Below are positions 2,416 through 27,539 of a DNA stretch of 34,172 nt, one piece after another; the first letter of the stretch is position 1; every line of letters starts with the position of its first letter. Below the pieces are notes generated by a model. That model was not told the DNA's origin. It searched no databases and worked only from the letters and a program-made list of their open reading frames with translations. The stretch spans positions 1 through 34,172 of the forward strand of contig CANQSK010000013.1 of the NCBI GenBank assembly GCA_947626475.1, read 5' to 3'. The translations under genes were made by a program, and so were the position numbers. Origin of the DNA: an uncultured Lachnospiraceae bacterium (GTDB taxonomy: Bacteria > Bacillota > Clostridia > Lachnospirales > Lachnospiraceae).

Positions 2416-4409
2416 GCGAAAATCAGCCGATTACAGTCGGGTTTGTAGGCAATCCCAACTGCGGAAAGACGACGCTGTTCAACGCGTTTACCGGCGCGAA
2501 GCTGAAGGTGGCCAACTGGCCCGGCGTTACGGTGGAGCGGGTGGAAGGAGAGACCAGCTATAAGGGACGCCCCATCCGGATGATCGATACGCCGGGAATT
2601 TACAGTCTGACCTCTTATACCATAGAAGAGATCGTTACCAGAAACTGCATAGAAGACGATGATGTGGATGTTATTATCAATGTGGCCGACGCCTCTTCTC
2701 TGGAGCGCAATCTGTATCTGACCATGCAGCTGCTGGAGCTGAAGAAGCCGGTGATCCTGGCTCTGAATATGATGGATATTGTGGAAGAGCGGGGTATGGA
2801 GATCGATCTGCACCGTCTTCCGGAAATGTTGGGAGGAATACCCGTGGTCCCTGTCTCCGCGAGAAAGAGGACCGGTCTGGATGTGCTTCTTCACGCGGTG
2901 GTCCATCACTATGAGGAAGGCCCCCATGGAATTGTGGTCCATTATACGGACGAGCTGGAGCGGAAGATTTCTCAGGTGGAGAATGCTCTGCGCCGGAAAT
3001 ACGGAGAGATGGGAAATCTGCGCTGGCATGCGGTGAAGCTGCTGGAACAGGACGAGGAGGTGGCGAAAGACCATCCTGTCGACCTGACCGGGATTGTAAC
3101 CCAGTCCTACGAGAAACAGATCACCAATGAGAAATACGACTACATAGAAGAGGTAGTCAGGGAGTGCCTGTTTAACAAAGAAAAAAAGGCCGCTTTCACA
3201 GATAAGATCGATCATTATCTGGTTCATCCCTTCTGGGGCATTCCTATTTTTCTGGGGATTATGGCCCTGGTGTTCTTTCTGACCTTTACGGTGGGAGATT
3301 TCCTGAAGGGCTATTTTGAGGTGGCCCTTGAATATGTATCCGCGGCAGTCTACGAGGGACTGATCATGGCGGGAGCTTCCCAGTGGCTGATCTCTCTTCT
3401 GGTGGACGGAGTAGTGGCCGGCGTTGGCGGCATACTAACCTTTCTGCCCAATATTTTCATACTGTTTCTGGCCCTGGCGTTTCTGGAAGACAGCGGATAT
3501 ATGGCGCGGGTGGCCTATGTAATGAACGAAACCATGAGTAAGGTGGGATTGTCGGGCAAGGCGTTTCTGCCCATGCTCCTGGGCTTCGGCTGTACGGTGC
3601 CGGCGGTTATGGCGACGAGAGCGCTGGCCACTCAGAGGGACCGGCTTCGGACGATCCTGATCACGCCGTTTATGTCCTGCTCCGCGAGGCTTCCGATTTA
3701 TGTTCTGTTTTCCAGCATGTTTTTTGGCGATCATGCGCTTCTGGTGGCCTACTCTCTGTATCTGCTCGGACTGGCCGTGGCGATACTGGTGGCATTCGTC
3801 GTACATAAAACATCCAGGTCCACGGAAGAGGATACCCTTCTGATCGAACTGCCGGAGTACAAGACGCCCAACGCCCGAACCGTGGCAATCTACGTCTGGG
3901 ATAAGGTGAAGGATTATCTGAGCAAGGCCGGAACTACGATCTTTGTAGCGTCCATCGTCCTGTGGTTCGTGTTAAATGCAGGCCCGGGAGGCTTTGTGGA
4001 GGATGTGTCCGTCAGCTTTGCCGCCATGTTCGGCAGGCTTCTGGTGCCGGTCCTCCGTCCTGCAGGGCTTGGGAGCTGGCAGGTGGCAGTGGCTCTTCTG
4101 TCGGGACTGTCAGCCAAGGAAGTGGTAGTTTCCAGCTTCTCTGTACTTTACGGTATTGGCAACATCAATTCCGCGGATGGAATGCGTCAGCTGTCCGGAC
4201 AGCTGGCTTCCACCGGATTCGGCGCGGTAAACGCCTATGCGCTGATGGTATTCTGTCTGCTGTATTCTCCCTGCATTGCCGCTTTGGGCGTAGTAAAGCG
4301 GGAAACCAGATCTTTGAGATGGACGCTGGGAATGGTCTGCTTCCAGCTGCTGGTCGCGTGGGGGATGTCGGTGCTGGTATTTCAGATAGGGACGCTTCTG
4401 GTGGGTTAA
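2412..4409 (+). CDS. feoB: Ferrous iron transport protein B (FeoB)
   Basis: FeoB is the membrane Fe(II) uptake protein with a cytosolic N-terminal G domain. The 665-residue product carries G1 GNPNCGKT (13-20), G2 around NWPGVTVE, G3 DTPG (59-62), G4 NMMD (119-122) and a G5-like PVSARKRTG, then a helical linker and many membrane segments. The two Gate/core signatures GFGCTVPA and YSPCIAALG are present with their cysteines. Length is somewhat below the E. coli protein, as usual for Firmicutes. No feoC follows. The next gene converges from the other strand without a clear terminator between. Confidence 0.97.
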   Translation: MSENQPITVGFVGNPNCGKTTLFNAFTGAKLKVANWPGVTVERVEGETSYKGRPIRMIDTPGIYSLTSYTIEEIVTRNCIEDDDVDVIINVADASSLERNLYLTMQLLELKKPVILALNMMDIVEERGMEIDLHRLPEMLGGIPVVPVSARKRTGLDVLLHAVVHHYEEGPHGIVVHYTDELERKISQVENALRRKYGEMGNLRWHAVKLLEQDEEVAKDHPVDLTGIVTQSYEKQITNEKYDYIEEVVRECLFNKEKKAAFTDKIDHYLVHPFWGIPIFLGIMALVFFLTFTVGDFLKGYFEVALEYVSAAVYEGLIMAGASQWLISLLVDGVVAGVGGILTFLPNIFILFLALAFLEDSGYMARVAYVMNETMSKVGLSGKAFLPMLLGFGCTVPAVMATRALATQRDRLRTILITPFMSCSARLPIYVLFSSMFFGDHALLVAYSLYLLGLAVAILVAFVVHKTSRSTEEDTLLIELPEYKTPNARTVAIYVWDKVKDYLSKAGTTIFVASIVLWFVLNAGPGGFVEDVSVSFAAMFGRLLVPVLRPAGLGSWQVAVALLSGLSAKEVVVSSFSVLYGIGNINSADGMRQLSGQLASTGFGAVNAYALMVFCLLYSPCIAALGVVKRETRSLRWTLGMVCFQLLVAWGMSVLVFQIGTLLVG

Positions 4410-5737: not shown

Positions 5738-5925
5738 GAGAAGTTTCATATTTTTTTACCCGGTGCGCCTGGATTCTTATGGTATCATTGCTGTTTAAGG
5801 AGGCTCTTGCGGATAAAAAAACAGGGATTGGCTGGTTTATCGCAGTCAAACCGGCAGTCAGAAGCATGGCGGATAAGTTATGGGTCATAGTCAAATTCAA
5901 CGTGGCAGTACAGGAGGAATTTGAG

Positions 5926-7041
5926 ATGCCGAAAAGAGGAGAGAACATTTTCAAAAGGAAAGATGGACGATGGGAGGCCCGATATGTCAAAGGTTATGAG
6001 CTGTCCGGAAAGATTCGCTATGGGTTCTGTTACGGAAGAACCTACAGGGAGGCGAAGGAAAAGGTTATGCAGACCAGGGCCGCGCTTATGAGCGGCACGC
6101 CTGTCCCGGCGGCCCACAATCGCCGCTGCTTCGCTTTTTTCTGCGGGGAATGGCTGCAGTTTCAGCGCTTTAGGGTCAAAGAATCTACTTATGTGAAATA
6201 CGAGACCATGCTTCAGCGCCATATTCTGCCGAAGCTTGGCGGCTGTTTTCCTGCCGGAATCACGACGCAGACGGTGGAAGCGTTCAAATCGGAGCTTCTG
6301 GATGAAGGGCTTTCTCCTCAGTCGGTGAAGAGTATTCTGATGGAGCTTCGGGCTGTTCTGAAATATACGGCCGCTCAGTATCCCGGTATGTTCCCGGCCG
6401 TACAGGTAGCGTACCCAAAGGAACATAAAAAGGAAATGCGGGTGCTGATGCCGGAGGAACAGCAGAGGCTGATGGCGTATCTGCAGAATAATATGGATGC
6501 CTGCAGGTTCGGTATTCTGCTGGCGCTTATGACGGGCCTGCGCCTTGGAGAGACATGCGCTCTCAAATGGGAGAATATTTCTCTGAAAAACGGCACGATT
6601 CATATCAGTTCCACGATGCAGAGGTTAAAGAATATTGACGGCGGGGAAGGGGCCAGAACAAAAATCTCCATCAGCGGGCCGAAGAGCGAGACTTCAGTCC
6701 GGACGATCCCCCTGACGGAGGATGTGATCTGGCTTTGCAAAAAGAATGACCCGCACTGTCCCGCGGCCTATGTGCTGACGGGAACGCAGGAATTTATGGA
6801 GCCGCGCAAGCTTCAGCGGCGGCTTGAAAAGTACACAAAGGAGTGCGGTCTGGAAAATGTTCACTTTCACACGCTCCGACACACCTTTGCCACCCGGTGC
6901 GTTGAGGTGGGGTTTGAACTGAAAAGTCTCAGTGAGATTCTGGGCCATGCCAATACTTCCACAACGCTGGACCGCTATGTGCATTCCTCCATTGACCTGA
7001 AACGAAGCAATATGGAGAAGCTTAAAAAGTTCGTCCCGTAA
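5926..7041 (+). CDS. Tyrosine recombinase/integrase, phage-integrase type
   Basis: A site-specific tyrosine recombinase of 371 residues. The N-terminal part (GENIFKRKDGRWEARYVKG) is an arm-type DNA-binding-like region, followed by a SAM-like core-binding domain and a catalytic domain with R206 (TGLRLGE), H315-x-x-R318 (HTLRH), H341 (LGHAN) and the nucleophile Y351 (DRYVH). All key residues are present. I chose the ATG at 5926 because AGGAGG lies upstream; the frame is open back to 5779 but without a ribosome site. The gene lies alone between inverted 25-bp repeats with no phage or conjugation genes. A DNA invertase role is inferred from that context. A weak promoter TTTACC-N17-TATGGT lies at 5755-5783. 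Confidence 0.93.
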   Translation: MPKRGENIFKRKDGRWEARYVKGYELSGKIRYGFCYGRTYREAKEKVMQTRAALMSGTPVPAAHNRRCFAFFCGEWLQFQRFRVKESTYVKYETMLQRHILPKLGGCFPAGITTQTVEAFKSELLDEGLSPQSVKSILMELRAVLKYTAAQYPGMFPAVQVAYPKEHKKEMRVLMPEEQQRLMAYLQNNMDACRFGILLALMTGLRLGETCALKWENISLKNGTIHISSTMQRLKNIDGGEGARTKISISGPKSETSVRTIPLTEDVIWLCKKNDPHCPAAYVLTGTQEFMEPRKLQRRLEKYTKECGLENVHFHTLRHTFATRCVEVGFELKSLSEILGHANTSTTLDRYVHSSIDLKRSNMEKLKKFVP

Positions 7042-21779: not shown

Positions 21780-21826
21780 AAAACCGGCACAGATGGCGCG
21801 GATAACGCCTGCTGTGCCGGTTTTTT
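21780..21826. terminator. Terminator between the zinc-ribbon and recombinase genes
   Basis: AAAACCGGCACAG pairs with CTGTGCCGGTTTT, followed by further T residues. The A run on the left lets it also stop the minus-strand recombinase transcript. Confidence 0.85.
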
Positions 21827-21832
21827 GCAGTC

Positions 21833-22408
21833 TTACAGATTCATTTTCAGGAACACCTGATCCCGGTCGTCCTGATCTATGGACAGATAACGTTTGGTAA
21901 TCTCCAGAGAGGAATGATTGTAGATCGACATGATCAGCGCCGGCGGAACGCCGTTTTTCCACGCGTGATAGCCAAAGGTCTTCCGCAGGGAATGGCAGCT
22001 GATGATGCCCTCCAGGTGGAGGTCCGTCACCGCGTTCCGGATGATGCGGAACGCCCATGTCCGGTCAATGGGCCGGTTGGTGCCCTCGCGGCTTTGGAAT
22101 ATGTAATCGCCGGGCACGGGGTCAGAGAAATTCCGAAGCAGCTTCAGCGACGAGAGCGCTTCCTTGTTCAGGGCGATCAGATTGCGCTTTCCGGTCTTCT
22201 GTTCAATCAATTCAATGTGGCTGTGATAATGTCTGGTTTCAAAATCGTAGACATCGTTCCATTTCAGGAGAAGCAGGTCGCCGATTCGCAGAGACGTATT
22301 GACGGCCAGCGTGACCATGGTATAGTTCCGGATCTGGTGGCGGTCCAAATAGTACTGCTTGAGTCTCTGGATATCCCGCCTGTTCTTGATTGGCTGAGTT
22401 TTTCCCAT
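21833..22408 (-). CDS. Compact tyrosine recombinase (FimB-sized)
   Basis: A 191-residue recombinase that consists of essentially the catalytic domain alone. All active-site residues are present: R41 (NTSLRIGD), H139-x-x-R142 (CHSLRKT), H165 (YNHSS) and nucleophile Y174 (KRYLSI). The length is like the FimB/FimE DNA invertases, which also lack a separate core-binding domain. The start at 22408 follows GGAGGTAGG. No phage or plasmid genes are adjacent. Its target is unknown; an inverted repeat lies directly in its leader. Confidence 0.9.
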   Translation of the reverse strand: MGKTQPIKNRRDIQRLKQYYLDRHQIRNYTMVTLAVNTSLRIGDLLLLKWNDVYDFETRHYHSHIELIEQKTGKRNLIALNKEALSSLKLLRNFSDPVPGDYIFQSREGTNRPIDRTWAFRIIRNAVTDLHLEGIISCHSLRKTFGYHAWKNGVPPALIMSIYNHSSLEITKRYLSIDQDDRDQVFLKMNL

Positions 22409-22420
22409 TTTTCCTACCTC

Positions 22421-22471
22421 CATTGCTGATATTTGGCGACAAATCGCCGTGTATTTATAATATCAACAATG
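22421..22471 (-). repeat. Nested inverted repeat in the leader of the compact recombinase
   Basis: CATTGCTGATATT (22421-22433) and AATATCAACAATG (22459-22471) are inverted copies with one mismatch in 13. The 25-bp centre holds a second dyad GGCGA-CAAA-TCGCC (22435-22448). The outer arm abuts the ribosome site of the recombinase. It could be a recombinase binding site or an mRNA hairpin controlling translation. Confidence 0.6.
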
Positions 22472-23880: not shown

Positions 23881-24004
23881 ATACAAGGAGAGCGCCGATT
23901 GCGATTGTATCAGGCAGTGTTTGACGGGTATCTCCAGTGAGACGGTAGTTGAAATGGCAGTGCAGAAGGCGGATTTGGATTTCTTTTTTGTAGACAATAA
24001 ATGA
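23864..24004 (+). CDS. Possible 46-residue ORF coupled to the NUDIX gene
   Basis: An ATG frame of 46 codons (starts MALRIIYKESADCDC, ends DLDFFFVDNK) stops in an ATGA overlap with the NUDIX start. The NUDIX gene has no clear ribosome site of its own, which would make sense if ribosomes arrive from this frame. Against it: no good ribosome site of its own at 23864, and a promoter -10 lies inside it. It may be the remnant of a longer gene. No family recognised. Confidence 0.3.
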   Translation: MALRIIYKESADCDCIRQCLTGISSETVVEMAVQKADLDFFFVDNK

Positions 24005-24396
24005 ATTATAAGAAAATAATTTATGTGGCAGCAGCAGTAATCACCCACGAAAACGCCATCTTCGCCACCCAGCGGGGTTACGGTGATTTTAAGGGCGGCT
24101 GGGAGTTCCCGGGCGGTAAGGTGGAACCCGGGGAGACGCCTGAGCAGGCCCTGAAGAGGGAAATTATGGAGGAGCTTGGAGCGGAAATTGAGGTGGGGGA
24201 GTGGATTGATAAAATCGAGTATGACTACCCGGCTTTTCATCTTTCCATGGACTGTTTCTGGTGTACGGTGAAATCAGGCAGGCTGGTTCTGAAGGAACAT
24301 GAGGCTGCCAGATGGCTGACGAAAGATACGCTGGACAGTGTGGACTGGCTGCCGGCAGACCGGAGTCTGCTTGAGAAAGTGAAGGCATCGTTATAA
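24001..24396 (+). CDS. NUDIX hydrolase, MutT-like
   Basis: A 131-residue (deoxy)nucleoside triphosphate pyrophosphohydrolase. The complete Nudix box G39-x5-E45-x7-REIMEELG (R53, E54, E57, E58) is present, in the short form typical of MutT-type proteins that remove oxidised dGTP. A WEFPGGK segment, characteristic of this group, precedes the box. The exact substrate is inferred. The start lacks a clear ribosome site and overlaps a short upstream frame. A GNAT gene follows after 24 bp. Confidence 0.93.
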   Translation: MNYKKIIYVAAAVITHENAIFATQRGYGDFKGGWEFPGGKVEPGETPEQALKREIMEELGAEIEVGEWIDKIEYDYPAFHLSMDCFWCTVKSGRLVLKEHEAARWLTKDTLDSVDWLPADRSLLEKVKASL

Positions 24397-24420: not shown

Positions 24421-24903
24421 ATGAACATCCGAACAGCGGCAATAACCGATCTGGATGCTGTGACAGCGGTGGAGGCAGTTTGTTTTCCGGCTGCGGAGGC
24501 AGCTCCAAGAGAGACCATGAAGGACCGGCTGATTCATTATCCGAATCATTTCTGGCTACTGGAGGACGGCAATGTGGTGGTGAGCTTTGTGAACGGTCTG
24601 GTGACGAACCAGGAGCATCTGGAGGATATTATGTTTGCGGATGCGTCTATGCATGACGAGCATGGCGCGTGGCAGATGATCTTCGGAGTAGATACCATAC
24701 CCGCGTACCGGCGGCAGGGCTGCGCGGCCCGCCTGCTCCGCCATGTGATCGAGACGGCCAGGGAACAGGGGCGGAAAGGGCTGGTCCTCACCTGCAAGGA
24801 GCATATGATTCACTACTATGCGAAATTTGATTTCACGGACGAAGGACTCTCCCAGTCCAGCCACGGCGGAGCGGTCTGGCACGAGATGCGGATTACATTC
24901 TAA
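24421..24903 (+). CDS. GNAT family N-acetyltransferase
   Basis: A 160-residue acetyltransferase. The acetyl-CoA binding motif A is visible (IPAYRRQGCAARLLRHVIETAREQG) followed by LVLTCKEHMIHYYAKFDF, where the tyrosine is the usual proton donor region. It resembles small amine or peptide acetyltransferases; the substrate is unknown. The gene's last 48 bases include a 36-bp segment that recurs downstream of the RloAB pair. The present C-terminus (HEMRITF) therefore may not be the original one (HEMRLVFQPK survives at the second copy). Confidence 0.92.
   Translation: MNIRTAAITDLDAVTAVEAVCFPAAEAAPRETMKDRLIHYPNHFWLLEDGNVVVSFVNGLVTNQEHLEDIMFADASMHDEHGAWQMIFGVDTIPAYRRQGCAARLLRHVIETAREQGRKGLVLTCKEHMIHYYAKFDFTDEGLSQSSHGGAVWHEMRITF
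24856..24891 (+). repeat. 36-bp direct repeat, left copy (inside the GNAT 3' end)
   Basis: This 36-bp segment is identical to 26903-26938 in the same orientation. It encodes SSHGGAVWHEMR near the C-terminus of the acetyltransferase. Confidence 0.95.
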
Positions 24904-24935
24904 TATCGAAAAATCAAATATAAAAATGAATAAAA

Positions 24936-24985
24936 TGTGAATATTTCACAAAAATATTGACATAATAATTGAATCGGCATATTAT
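24936..24985 (+). promoter_or_regulatory. Promoter and palindrome of the RloAB pair
   Basis: TTGACA (24957-24962), a 17-bp spacer and TATTAT (24980-24985) precede the ATPase gene. A perfect palindrome TGTGAATATTTCACA (24936-24950) lies 6 bp upstream of the -35, an operator-like position. No regulator is encoded in the module. Confidence 0.75.
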
Positions 24986-25008
24986 ATTTACGTAGGAGGG
25001 ATAAATAT

Positions 25009-26211
25009 ATGTTGGTTCAATTTTCATTGAAGAATGTATTGTCTTTCAGAGATGAAACGGTTTTGGATATGACCGCGGTCAATGCATATAAAGAGCATGC
25101 TGACAATGTGATTGATTTGGGGCTGAAGGACAAGGAGAGTTTTTTGCGCGTAGCGGCAATTTACGGGGCCAATGCCAGCGGAAAGTCTAATTTGAATATA
25201 GCCATGTCTTATTTCAACGGCATTGTGCGGGAATCCTTTGACAATGTAGGGGACGGAGAAAGCACTGTGCTGGAAAAGTATTATGTGCCTTTCTTGTTTG
25301 ATGATGGGGAATATGAGAATTCTGAGTTTCAGATTGTGGAAATTCTGGGAGATTTTGAGTATCGCTATGGGTTTGCGTATAATGATCAGGCGATTGAAGA
25401 AGAATGGCTCTACAGAAAGAGTTTAAAATCAAACCGAACGGTGATTATTTTTGAGAGAAAAGAAGAGACGGTAGAGTTTGGCGCTGCTGTCAGGCGGGAA
25501 TGCAGTCTGTATCAAAAGCAGATTCCCAGGGAGACACTGGTCTTGTCTTTTTTCAATAAACTGAAATTAAAGACGGCTGAATTCAGGAATGTATACAACG
25601 GTATTATGAATACATTGGTTGTCTCGTCTGATTTTTGCGAAGATACTCGTTTTCTGGAAGCCTTTCTTCCTCGGATTATCGATAAAGAAAAAGAAAAGCT
25701 GCTCTCATTTTTGAATGCTATCGATGTAGGCATCAAGGATATTGAGTATGACGACAGTGAAAAAGGTATCCGCTTCTGGACTTATCATCTGGGAAAAGAC
25801 GGAGAGCGGCATGAACTCGGTCTGTATAGTGAATCTGAAGGAACGATTAAGAGTATTAATCTGTTCATTTATGCGCAGATGGCATTGATGAGAGATGCGT
25901 CTTTGTTTGTTGATGAGTTAAATGTAAAGCTTCATCCGCTGCTGTTAAAATTTATTATTGACCTTTTCTATGACGCCAGATCCAGGGCGCAGCTGATCTA
26001 CACAACCCATGATACCACGCTGATGGATAAGAAATTTTTCCGAAGGGATCAGATCTGGTTTGTGGATAAGGATGAATATGGATATTCCAGATTGGCGGCG
26101 CTTTCGGATTATAAGGTTCGGTCGGATGCCTCTTTCGAGAAGGATTATCTGGCCGGAGTGTATGGGGGGATTCCGTTTTTGAAGGAGTTTGACATGAGAG
26201 AAGGTGAATAA
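25009..26211 (+). CDS. AAA/ABC-type ATPase, RloA-like
   Basis: A 400-residue ATPase of the RecF/SMC-like AAA15 group. Walker A GANASGKS (53-60) and Walker B SLFVDELNVKLHP followed by YTTHDTTLMD are clear; the N-terminal LVQFSLKNVLSFRDETVLDM is typical. It is directly followed by an RloB-like TOPRIM protein. ATPase plus TOPRIM pairs occur in several phage-defence systems (OLD, Gabija, PARIS, RloAB), and a defence role is inferred from this pairing. Ribosome site GTAGGAGGG precedes the start. Base composition is lower in GC than its neighbours. Confidence 0.85.
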   Translation: MLVQFSLKNVLSFRDETVLDMTAVNAYKEHADNVIDLGLKDKESFLRVAAIYGANASGKSNLNIAMSYFNGIVRESFDNVGDGESTVLEKYYVPFLFDDGEYENSEFQIVEILGDFEYRYGFAYNDQAIEEEWLYRKSLKSNRTVIIFERKEETVEFGAAVRRECSLYQKQIPRETLVLSFFNKLKLKTAEFRNVYNGIMNTLVVSSDFCEDTRFLEAFLPRIIDKEKEKLLSFLNAIDVGIKDIEYDDSEKGIRFWTYHLGKDGERHELGLYSESEGTIKSINLFIYAQMALMRDASLFVDELNVKLHPLLLKFIIDLFYDARSRAQLIYTTHDTTLMDKKFFRRDQIWFVDKDEYGYSRLAALSDYKVRSDASFEKDYLAGVYGGIPFLKEFDMREGE

Positions 26212-26895
26212 GTGGGGACAGACGAATTATTTAAGAAAAGACGGAAAGAACGGAAGCAGAGAAGATATGAATATCGGATGCCGCGTGCGAATTCCTATCT
26301 GATCGCTACGGAAGGGACTCGAACCGAACCATTGTATTTTGAAGGTATAAAGAAAGAGATTTTGAAGAAAATCGGAGGCCGGGTTGACGTTGTCAGTGTA
26401 CCGCTGATACAAATCGAGGGAGAGGGCTCCTCTACGGGAAGATTGATTGAAACAGCAGATGAAATCGTAAAGAAAGCGAATATCTGGTATCAGAATGTTT
26501 GGATTGTGTTCGACAGAGATGACTTTCGGGATTTTGACTGGGCGATAGCGGAGGGAAAAAGGAGAGGATATCATATTGCATGGAGTAATCCGTCTTTTGA
26601 GTATTGGCTGTACCTGCATTTTGCCTATAGTGATTCGGCGCTGCACAGAGATGACTGGAATCAAAAACTTGATGTACTATTTAAAGAGTACAGTTTAGGA
26701 GAAGGAAAATACAAAAAGAATTATACAGATATTTATGATTTAGTTGATACATATGGCGGTGTGGATACGGCGGTCAAAAATGCAAAGAGACGTATGGCGG
26801 ATTTTGATGAGGGAAATTGCAAACCGTCAGCATTTGATCCTGGAACTACGGTATTTGAATTAGTGGAAGAGTTGAAAAAGATGCTGGAGTATTAA
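26212..26895 (+). CDS. RloB-like protein with TOPRIM-type motifs
   Basis: A 227-residue RloB family protein. The TOPRIM-like acidic set is visible: E34 in YLIATEGTRTEPLYF and D101-x-D103 in WIVFDRDDF, plus the family block SNPSFEYWLYLHF (126-136). Such proteins are presumed nucleases that act with their partner ATPase. The GTG start at 26212 immediately follows the stop of the ATPase gene with no spacing, so the two are tightly coupled. A basic N-terminus (KKRRKERKQRRYEYR) could bind nucleic acid. Confidence 0.87.
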   Translation: MGTDELFKKRRKERKQRRYEYRMPRANSYLIATEGTRTEPLYFEGIKKEILKKIGGRVDVVSVPLIQIEGEGSSTGRLIETADEIVKKANIWYQNVWIVFDRDDFRDFDWAIAEGKRRGYHIAWSNPSFEYWLYLHFAYSDSALHRDDWNQKLDVLFKEYSLGEGKYKKNYTDIYDLVDTYGGVDTAVKNAKRRMADFDEGNCKPSAFDPGTTVFELVEELKKMLEY

Positions 26896-26902
26896 TTCAG
26901 AA

Positions 26903-26959
26903 TCCAGCCACGGCGGAGCGGTCTGGCACGAGATGCGGCTGGTGTTTCAGCCGAAATAA
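26903..26959 (+). pseudogene. 36-bp direct repeat (right copy) with orphan 3' tail of the GNAT gene
   Basis: Bases 26903-26938 repeat 24856-24891 exactly. Continuing in the same frame the fragment reads SSHGGAVWHEMRLVFQPK and a TAA stop, that is the tail of an acetyltransferase without the rest of the gene. It has no start and is not translated by itself. It most likely marks the original end of the GNAT gene before the insertion. Confidence 0.8.
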
Positions 26960-26966
26960 AACCGCC

Positions 26967-26995
26967 TTGTGGATTTTTCTGATATCTGATAGAAT
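26967..26995 (+). promoter_or_regulatory. Promoter upstream of bcp
   Basis: TTGTGG (26967-26972), a 17-bp spacer and TAGAAT (26990-26995) lie about 90 bp before the peroxiredoxin start. Confidence 0.55.
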
Positions 26996-27086: not shown

Positions 27087-27539
27087 ATGTTAGAGGTTGG
27101 GACCAAAGCACCGGCGTTTACCCTGCCGGATCAGAACGGAGAGATGCATTCGCTGGAGGATTATAAGGGCCAGAAGGTGATTCTGTATTTTTATCCCAAA
27201 GACAATACCTCCGGCTGCACGGCTCAGGCCTGCAGCTTTGGAGAGCTGTACCCTCAGTTCTGGGAGAAAGGGGCGGTGGTCCTGGGCGTCAGCAAGGACA
27301 GCGTAGCGTCCCACAAGAAGTTTGAGAAGAATTATGGGCTGCCGTTCACCCTTTTGTCCGACACGGAGCTGGAAACTATCCAGGCCTATGACGCATGGCA
27401 GGAGAAGAGCATGTACGGCAGAAAATTTATGGGCATTGTCCGCACGACTTATCTGATTGATGAAAATGGAGTGATTGAGAAGGCGTTTTCTAAAGTGAAG
27501 GCCAAGGAGAATGCGGCGCAGATGCTGAAGCTGCTGTAG
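27087..27539 (+). CDS. bcp: Thiol peroxidase, Bcp/PrxQ type
   Basis: Bcp reduces hydrogen peroxide and organic peroxides with electrons from thioredoxin. The 150-residue product has the thioredoxin-like N-terminus (GTKAPAFTLPDQNG) and the Bcp cysteine pair C44 and C49 (SGCTAQACSF), peroxidatic and resolving, with the usual four residues between. Length is standard. A GAAGGGAG site precedes the start. It opens a run of oxidative-stress genes (yaaA, nitroreductase, glycosylase). Confidence 0.96.
   Translation: MLEVGTKAPAFTLPDQNGEMHSLEDYKGQKVILYFYPKDNTSGCTAQACSFGELYPQFWEKGAVVLGVSKDSVASHKKFEKNYGLPFTLLSDTELETIQAYDAWQEKSMYGRKFMGIVRTTYLIDENGVIEKAFSKVKAKENAAQMLKLL

Follow-up and report, generated by a model that had tools for sequence, protein, structure and literature searches.

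A two-gene phage defense system, AbiL, lies behind the 3' end of a chromosomal GNAT acetyltransferase gene in the gut-bacterial DNA analyzed here and is followed by a second copy of that gene end. We consider it slightly better than an even bet (about 0.55) that GNAT-linked AbiL DNA entered a variable defense locus through recombination at GNAT combined with non-homologous joining, and that the earlier gene end stayed as a leftover. The window, which is the whole of a 34,172-nucleotide contig (C13) from a 3.1-Mb draft genome, carries NUDIX, GNAT, AbiLi, AbiLii, an orphan GNAT tail, bcp, and YaaA in that order. Its features are given below, with G008 and G024 denoting the nearest relatives that have the same genes.

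5779-7041, plus strand: Phage_integrase gene (Pfam)
21833-22423, minus strand: Phage_integrase gene (Pfam), a free-standing 196-aa tyrosine recombinase 2.4 kb left of repeat copy 1
24001-24396, plus strand: NUDIX (MutT-like) gene, the left neighbor common to relatives (Pfam NUDIX 8.2e-20; NCBIfam mutt 100.4 bits, cut-off 97.9)
24421-24903, plus strand: GNAT acetyltransferase gene, intact, ending HEMRITF-stop (Pfam Acetyltransf_1 2e-11; orthologues 89% in G008 and 86% in G024)
24856-24891, plus strand: 36-bp repeat copy 1, within GNAT
24892-24903, plus strand: GNAT tail past copy 1, I-T-F-stop
24917-25008, plus strand: AT-rich region 5' of AbiLi, conserved among AbiL loci in an alignment of ten, left limit approximate, containing GTGAATATTTCAC at 24937 and TTGACA at 24957
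25009-26211, plus strand: AbiLi ATPase gene (PADLOC AbiLi 1e-84; Pfam AAA_21 9.6e-26)
26212-26895, plus strand: AbiLii gene, RloB family (PADLOC AbiLii 1.9e-30; Pfam RloB 1.2e-42)
26903-26938, plus strand: 36-bp repeat copy 2
26939-26959, plus strand: orphan GNAT tail, L-V-F-Q-P-K-stop
26962-26995, plus strand: DNA common with the stretch 5' of bcp in G008 (in G024, from 26966), by local alignment
27087-27539, plus strand: bcp-type peroxiredoxin gene, the right neighbor (Pfam AhpC-TSA 1.7e-41; 97% in G008 and G024)

Both copies of the repeat and their two tails are directly visible in the window. The copies are identical over 36 bp and start 2,047 bp apart, and copy 2 read in the GNAT frame gives SSHGGAVWHEMRLVFQPK and a stop, ending at 26959, which leaves a 57-bp gene tail after AbiLii. 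The first-pass annotation had described this perfect repeat of the GNAT end, the in-frame orphan tail with its different ending (RLVFQPK-stop versus ITF-stop), and AT-rich DNA between the copies, and comparison within the window bears out all three: GC content between the copies is 40.2% versus 52.8% for the window, with none of 322 sampled same-length stretches as low. Apart from the two copies, no ungapped stretch of the window agrees with the 36-mer at more than 21 of 36 positions, compared with best matches of 20 to 22 in eight letter-shuffled windows (plus strand). A 141-base query around copy 1 returned 11 matches from its own genome. One was the query and another was copy 2 (E 5.2e-12), while the E values of the nine others were 0.11 or higher, and no third copy of the segment was found in the assembly. 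The window's 36 bp differ from G008 at six positions and from G024 at five; as the two copies are nonetheless identical to each other, either donor and resident were close or the copies have been evened out. The sequence changes sharply after base 36, with 3 of the next 10 bases alike past the two copies, and no clear microhomology could be seen by eye at the right junction.

The pair between the copies had been called RloAB-like. An ATPase gene and an RloB-family gene are indeed present, but judged by PADLOC, AbiL fits better as a name, and we assign the pair to AbiLi/AbiLii on these model matches. AbiLi has weaker matches to AriA (2.6e-24) and PDC-M12A (7.5e-19), while AbiLii has a single PADLOC match and scores 146.7 bits against a cut-off of 31.5 for Pfam RloB; no solved relative of AbiLii was found by sequence to E 0.1. 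The two genes directly adjoin on one strand, AbiLi ending at 26211 and AbiLii starting at 26212, and their order is kept in relatives. Open reading frames of at least 80 aa between the copies comprise these two genes and one antisense frame (26227-26664, minus strand), with no recombinase among them. As in the AbiL system of Lactococcus, an ATPase gene precedes an RloB-family gene and both match the PADLOC models, but the pair here is chromosomal and predicted from sequence, whereas the Lactococcus system is plasmid-encoded according to the available text of its description (PMC10440598). Abortive infection upon phage attack, known for the family, would be the predicted function of the pair. 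The same genome contains two further, divergent AbiL-type pairs (G000:C94 and G000:C49), and AbiLii is broken by a stop or frame break in four other loci as assembled (L106, L110, L111, and L139).

Comparison with the nearest relatives supports the pair as an addition behind GNAT. In G024, AbiL is absent; GNAT ends in RLTF and is followed by two genes without a Pfam match and then bcp. In G008, GNAT is followed by a 115-bp 3' fragment of AbiLii with 90% identity to the gene in the window, with the GNAT frame continuing into this remnant, and then by the same two genes and further DNA common with G024. G008 thus has a single gene end, a second GNAT end being absent. When the remnant was compared with 16 AbiL loci, the AbiLii of the window matched best, and four loci gave no match. 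The BLAST match between G008 and G024 ends after the codon at which the two copies in the window diverge, and 9 of the 10 bases past the repeat in G008 agree with copy 1 of the window versus 6 with G024. These roughly 10 bp hint that tail and AbiL travelled together. An artefact of assembly, joining two strains at a short repeat in this draft (207 contigs, contamination 2.87%), could in principle produce such a structure. However, a chimeric join via a common stretch would run through that stretch once, and a remnant of AbiL occupies the corresponding site in the separately assembled G008, which makes this account highly improbable.

The two-gene block that separates GNAT from bcp in G008 and G024 (L041 6266-7421 and L042 5647-6802, respectively, with the two genes adjacent) is missing from the window. 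Neither of the G024 proteins has a Pfam or PADLOC match, and among 99 genomes the second gene is found only in G008 and G024. The DNA common before bcp starts inside the last codons of this second gene. Both observations would fit a two-step history, in which AbiL was already in place when some subsequent rearrangement, for instance one that removed the block, produced the orphan tail. Yet simple duplication does not produce two different tails, and the bases past copy 2 resemble the end of the second gene only weakly (shuffle P of 0.01 for G008 and 0.03 for G024, in a test that took in the common pre-bcp part), so that we regard such a history as improbable. Beyond YaaA, G008 carries two extra open reading frames that are not at this place in the window (L041 8934-10336), the second with SocA/Panacea and MqsA-antitoxin matches.

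Among 31 related GNATs, 5 end exactly in R(L/I)TF-stop, 7 in R(L/I)xF-stop, and 17 at the F matching that of the window; in the remainder the final residue is another one or the protein extends past F, with short tails in several. The exact I-T-F-stop ending also occurs in two of them (L044 and L069), and the first tail in the window therefore looks like a real gene end; the ending of the intact gene fits a common pattern among these relatives. The orphan ending RLVFQPK was not seen among the 31, nor was a GNAT ending HEMRLVFQPK found directly before bcp in a search of one genome per species. Since short tails past F do occur in relatives, RLVFQPK may be the normal ending in the species of the window. 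It had been argued that relatives normally ending in RITF and followed by unrelated sequence would speak against an integration, and the 5 exact and 17 F-terminal endings go in that direction, but the several short tails past F do not.

Because the first tail resembles an authentic gene end, AbiL probably arrived on DNA that also carried the end of a GNAT gene. Which DNA served as donor, how the events were ordered, and what type of recombination took place are inferred. In the favored reading, the donor would have had an AbiL pair, complete with a promoter region, sitting behind a GNAT gene 3' end, all acquired together. Homologous recombination between donor and resident would have taken place at GNAT on the left, and on the right AbiL DNA would have been joined inside the resident GNAT gene without long homology. 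The product would be an intact GNAT with the donor tail, followed by AbiL and by an orphan made up of the final bases of the resident gene. A single event with two joins would thus account for the intact gene as well as for the duplicate and the orphan. Similar orphaned 3' ends are described, in the available text of PMC5361080, for Vibrio type VI secretion effector-immunity arrays and Rhs loci, where homology-facilitated illegitimate recombination places a new module on a conserved upstream part and leaves the old 3' end downstream; here, a 57-bp gene tail rather than an immunity gene is left, and the example is a single one. The same text calls the process rare, and a frequency of 3x10^-10 per recipient is given for E. 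coli in PMC3240628, which weakens our favored reading. It is also weakened by the lack of a donor among the genomes searched, one per species, by the extra residues past F in several related GNATs, by the tyrosine recombinase 2.4 kb away, and by the small extent, about 10 bp, of the tail evidence from G008.

Site-specific integration is the other account that fits the sharp change after base 36. The 36-bp GNAT end would then be an attachment core at which a recombinase encoded elsewhere inserted a small AbiL circle, supplying the new tail and displacing the old one. An identical core does lie at both ends of the unit and overlaps a gene 3' end, as in site-specific elements, the match between G008 and G024 stops after the same codon, and RLVFQPK as a normal native ending would suit this account as well. 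An identical map would result from a single crossover with a circle or from the action of a site-specific recombinase. Recombinases are also at hand. The first-pass annotation had noted the lack of an integrase, which is true of the DNA between the repeats but not of the window, given its two Phage_integrase genes. The 196-aa protein has a clear Pfam match yet falls well below all listed NCBIfam cut-offs, and eight inverted-repeat pairs (13 to 21 nt, 76 to 93%) surround its gene, including a 19-nt hairpin at 21780-21824. Across the whole genome, Phage_integrase is matched 15 times, 14 of them above the cut-off and some by fragments of a single gene, and resolvase is matched twice.

Several comparisons argue against a site-specific event, and we therefore hold it to be possible but unlikely. 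The second core is absent in G008, and a long repeat at NUDIX is absent in two further relatives with AbiL, G002 and G009. Other cargo in the same spot had been suggested as a check; neither this nor the same core at other insertions was found in G008, G002, or G009, and the 31 other GNAT loci have no second gene end by exact matching (longest match, 13 bp), a search that diverged copies may escape and that had less than 2 kb of downstream DNA for four of the loci. Nor was a third copy found in the genome. Neither window recombinase has a match in 189 loci, although for G008 and G024 these stop short of the equivalent DNA on the left; the left flanks of the two relatives as compared differ from that of the window. 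The proposed footprint of integration at a gene 3' end with the target restored thus stands as geometry, with an intact gene and a displaced second tail, but not in G008 with its one gene end. Integrative elements at gene 3' ends likewise produce a direct repeat of the gene end and an intact target gene; the unit here differs in having no internal recombinase, and comparable AbiL insertions lack this repeat. Even less probable, in our estimate, is the more general idea that small tyrosine recombinases standing alone, the 196-aa protein being an example, can capture two-gene defense units such as AbiL at the 3' end of a protein gene, with the unit supplying a replacement tail.

AbiL also occupies a second position in the same locus. 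AbiLi of at least 68% identity is present in 5 of 26 genus genomes (that of the window, G021, G009, G002, and G023), and in G002 and G009 AbiL follows the orthologous NUDIX gene (81 to 82%). The stretch has no GNAT in either genome, and bcp lies 2.6 kb further on in G002. Compared by eye with the AbiL-free G012, AbiL DNA replaces the NUDIX tail and spacer in both genomes, the NUDIX tail is changed, and the AbiLii stop lies directly 5' of the next ribosome-binding site. No long copy of the NUDIX end was found right of AbiL in either; G002 has a 13-bp match to it 241 bp downstream, and a 16- to 17-bp repeat lies further out in both. No NUDIX, GNAT, or bcp match was found in the stretch examined in G021 and G023. 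The AbiLi tree groups the window with G331, G021, G002, and G009 (91/95) without settling an order among them, and is compatible with one or several entries into the locus.

Across AbiL loci more broadly, conservation outside the pair lies on its left. In an alignment of ten loci, about 90 bp 5' of AbiLi are conserved and conservation stops at AbiLii; a common right end of the unit was rejected, as no block 3' of AbiLii is common to the ten. TTGACATA precedes AbiLi in 9 of the 10, and 5' of it is a palindrome-like motif that starts with GTGA in six and ends with TCAC in five, with both in two including the window. In the window this motif is GTGAATATTTCAC (24937-24949), before the promoter-like region of AbiLi; one half-site is often kept among the ten loci, and the motif is possibly an operator. 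A GNAT-like tail carried by AbiL elsewhere was also considered, but the alignment did not uphold a similarity to one locus at ATATCGA.

Flanking repeats were surveyed at 18 AbiL loci with flanks of up to 3 kb (one side shorter in six) and were rejected as a general feature of AbiL, 13 loci having none at E 0.01. Direct repeats were found in the window (36 bp), L109a (172 bp at 77%), L106 (49 bp at 98%), and L139 and L140 (16 to 17 bp); the substantial ones, in 3 of the 18, each differ in kind. That of 49 bp is palindromic and intergenic. The 172-bp repeats at L109 (G169:C33, reverse strand, about 3370-3540 and 6186-6356) enclose a divergent AbiL pair, one of three AbiL-type pairs within about 15 kb, and presumably resemble the first part of spoIIID, cut short. 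As to mobile carriers, two viral-contig scans, covering close relatives only, confirmed no GNAT or AbiLii relative, and RloB proteins in plasmid and phage records (2 and 4 records) were at most 33.3% identical. For E. coli, Staphylococcus aureus, and Streptococcus pyogenes, the available text of PMC2884548 reports direct repeats flanking 10 to 18% of small variable segments, 66 to 94% of these repeats being shorter than 30 bp, and a repeat beside a small insertion is thus not unusual.

Judged from gene content, the stretch from NUDIX to bcp is a changeable defense locus. As in a defense hotspot, differing defense genes lie between or beside common neighbors, with AbiL in the window, G002, and G009 and its remnant in G008. 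This NUDIX gene is present in 13 genomes, and the DNA on its left was compared in four of them: G008 has a type II restriction-modification set, G024 a type IV restriction-like enzyme, and G002 and G009 a cytosine methylase; the window has a VCA0040-like gene and no defense match there. The locus resembles cDHS1 of Pseudomonas aeruginosa in having fixed neighbors around changing defense genes. In the available text of PMC10250203, cDHS1 does not obviously belong to one mobile-element group, and it is far larger, with a median of 26 kb and over 1600 regions, whereas here the genomes are few and the neighbors vary too. The earlier proposal of an integrase-free cassette mobilized in trans is therefore sustained in part: the pair was acquired, being absent from G024 and a remnant in G008, and other defense genes lie nearby in four relatives, but the idea of a recombinase moving a defined two-gene cassette gains no support. 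Taken together, the comparisons point to ordinary DNA exchange at a changeable defense locus and away from a mobile cassette of a new kind.

The locus is a readable footprint of how a two-gene phage defense system that brings no mobility genes comes to lie next to a chromosomal gene. It can be compared with one relative that has no AbiL, with another in which the copy has decayed, and with AbiL at its other position nearby. It thus offers a small place in which to study how bare defense units move. If the recombinase reading were true, defense genes would move as integrase-free cassettes, and the locus would matter more.
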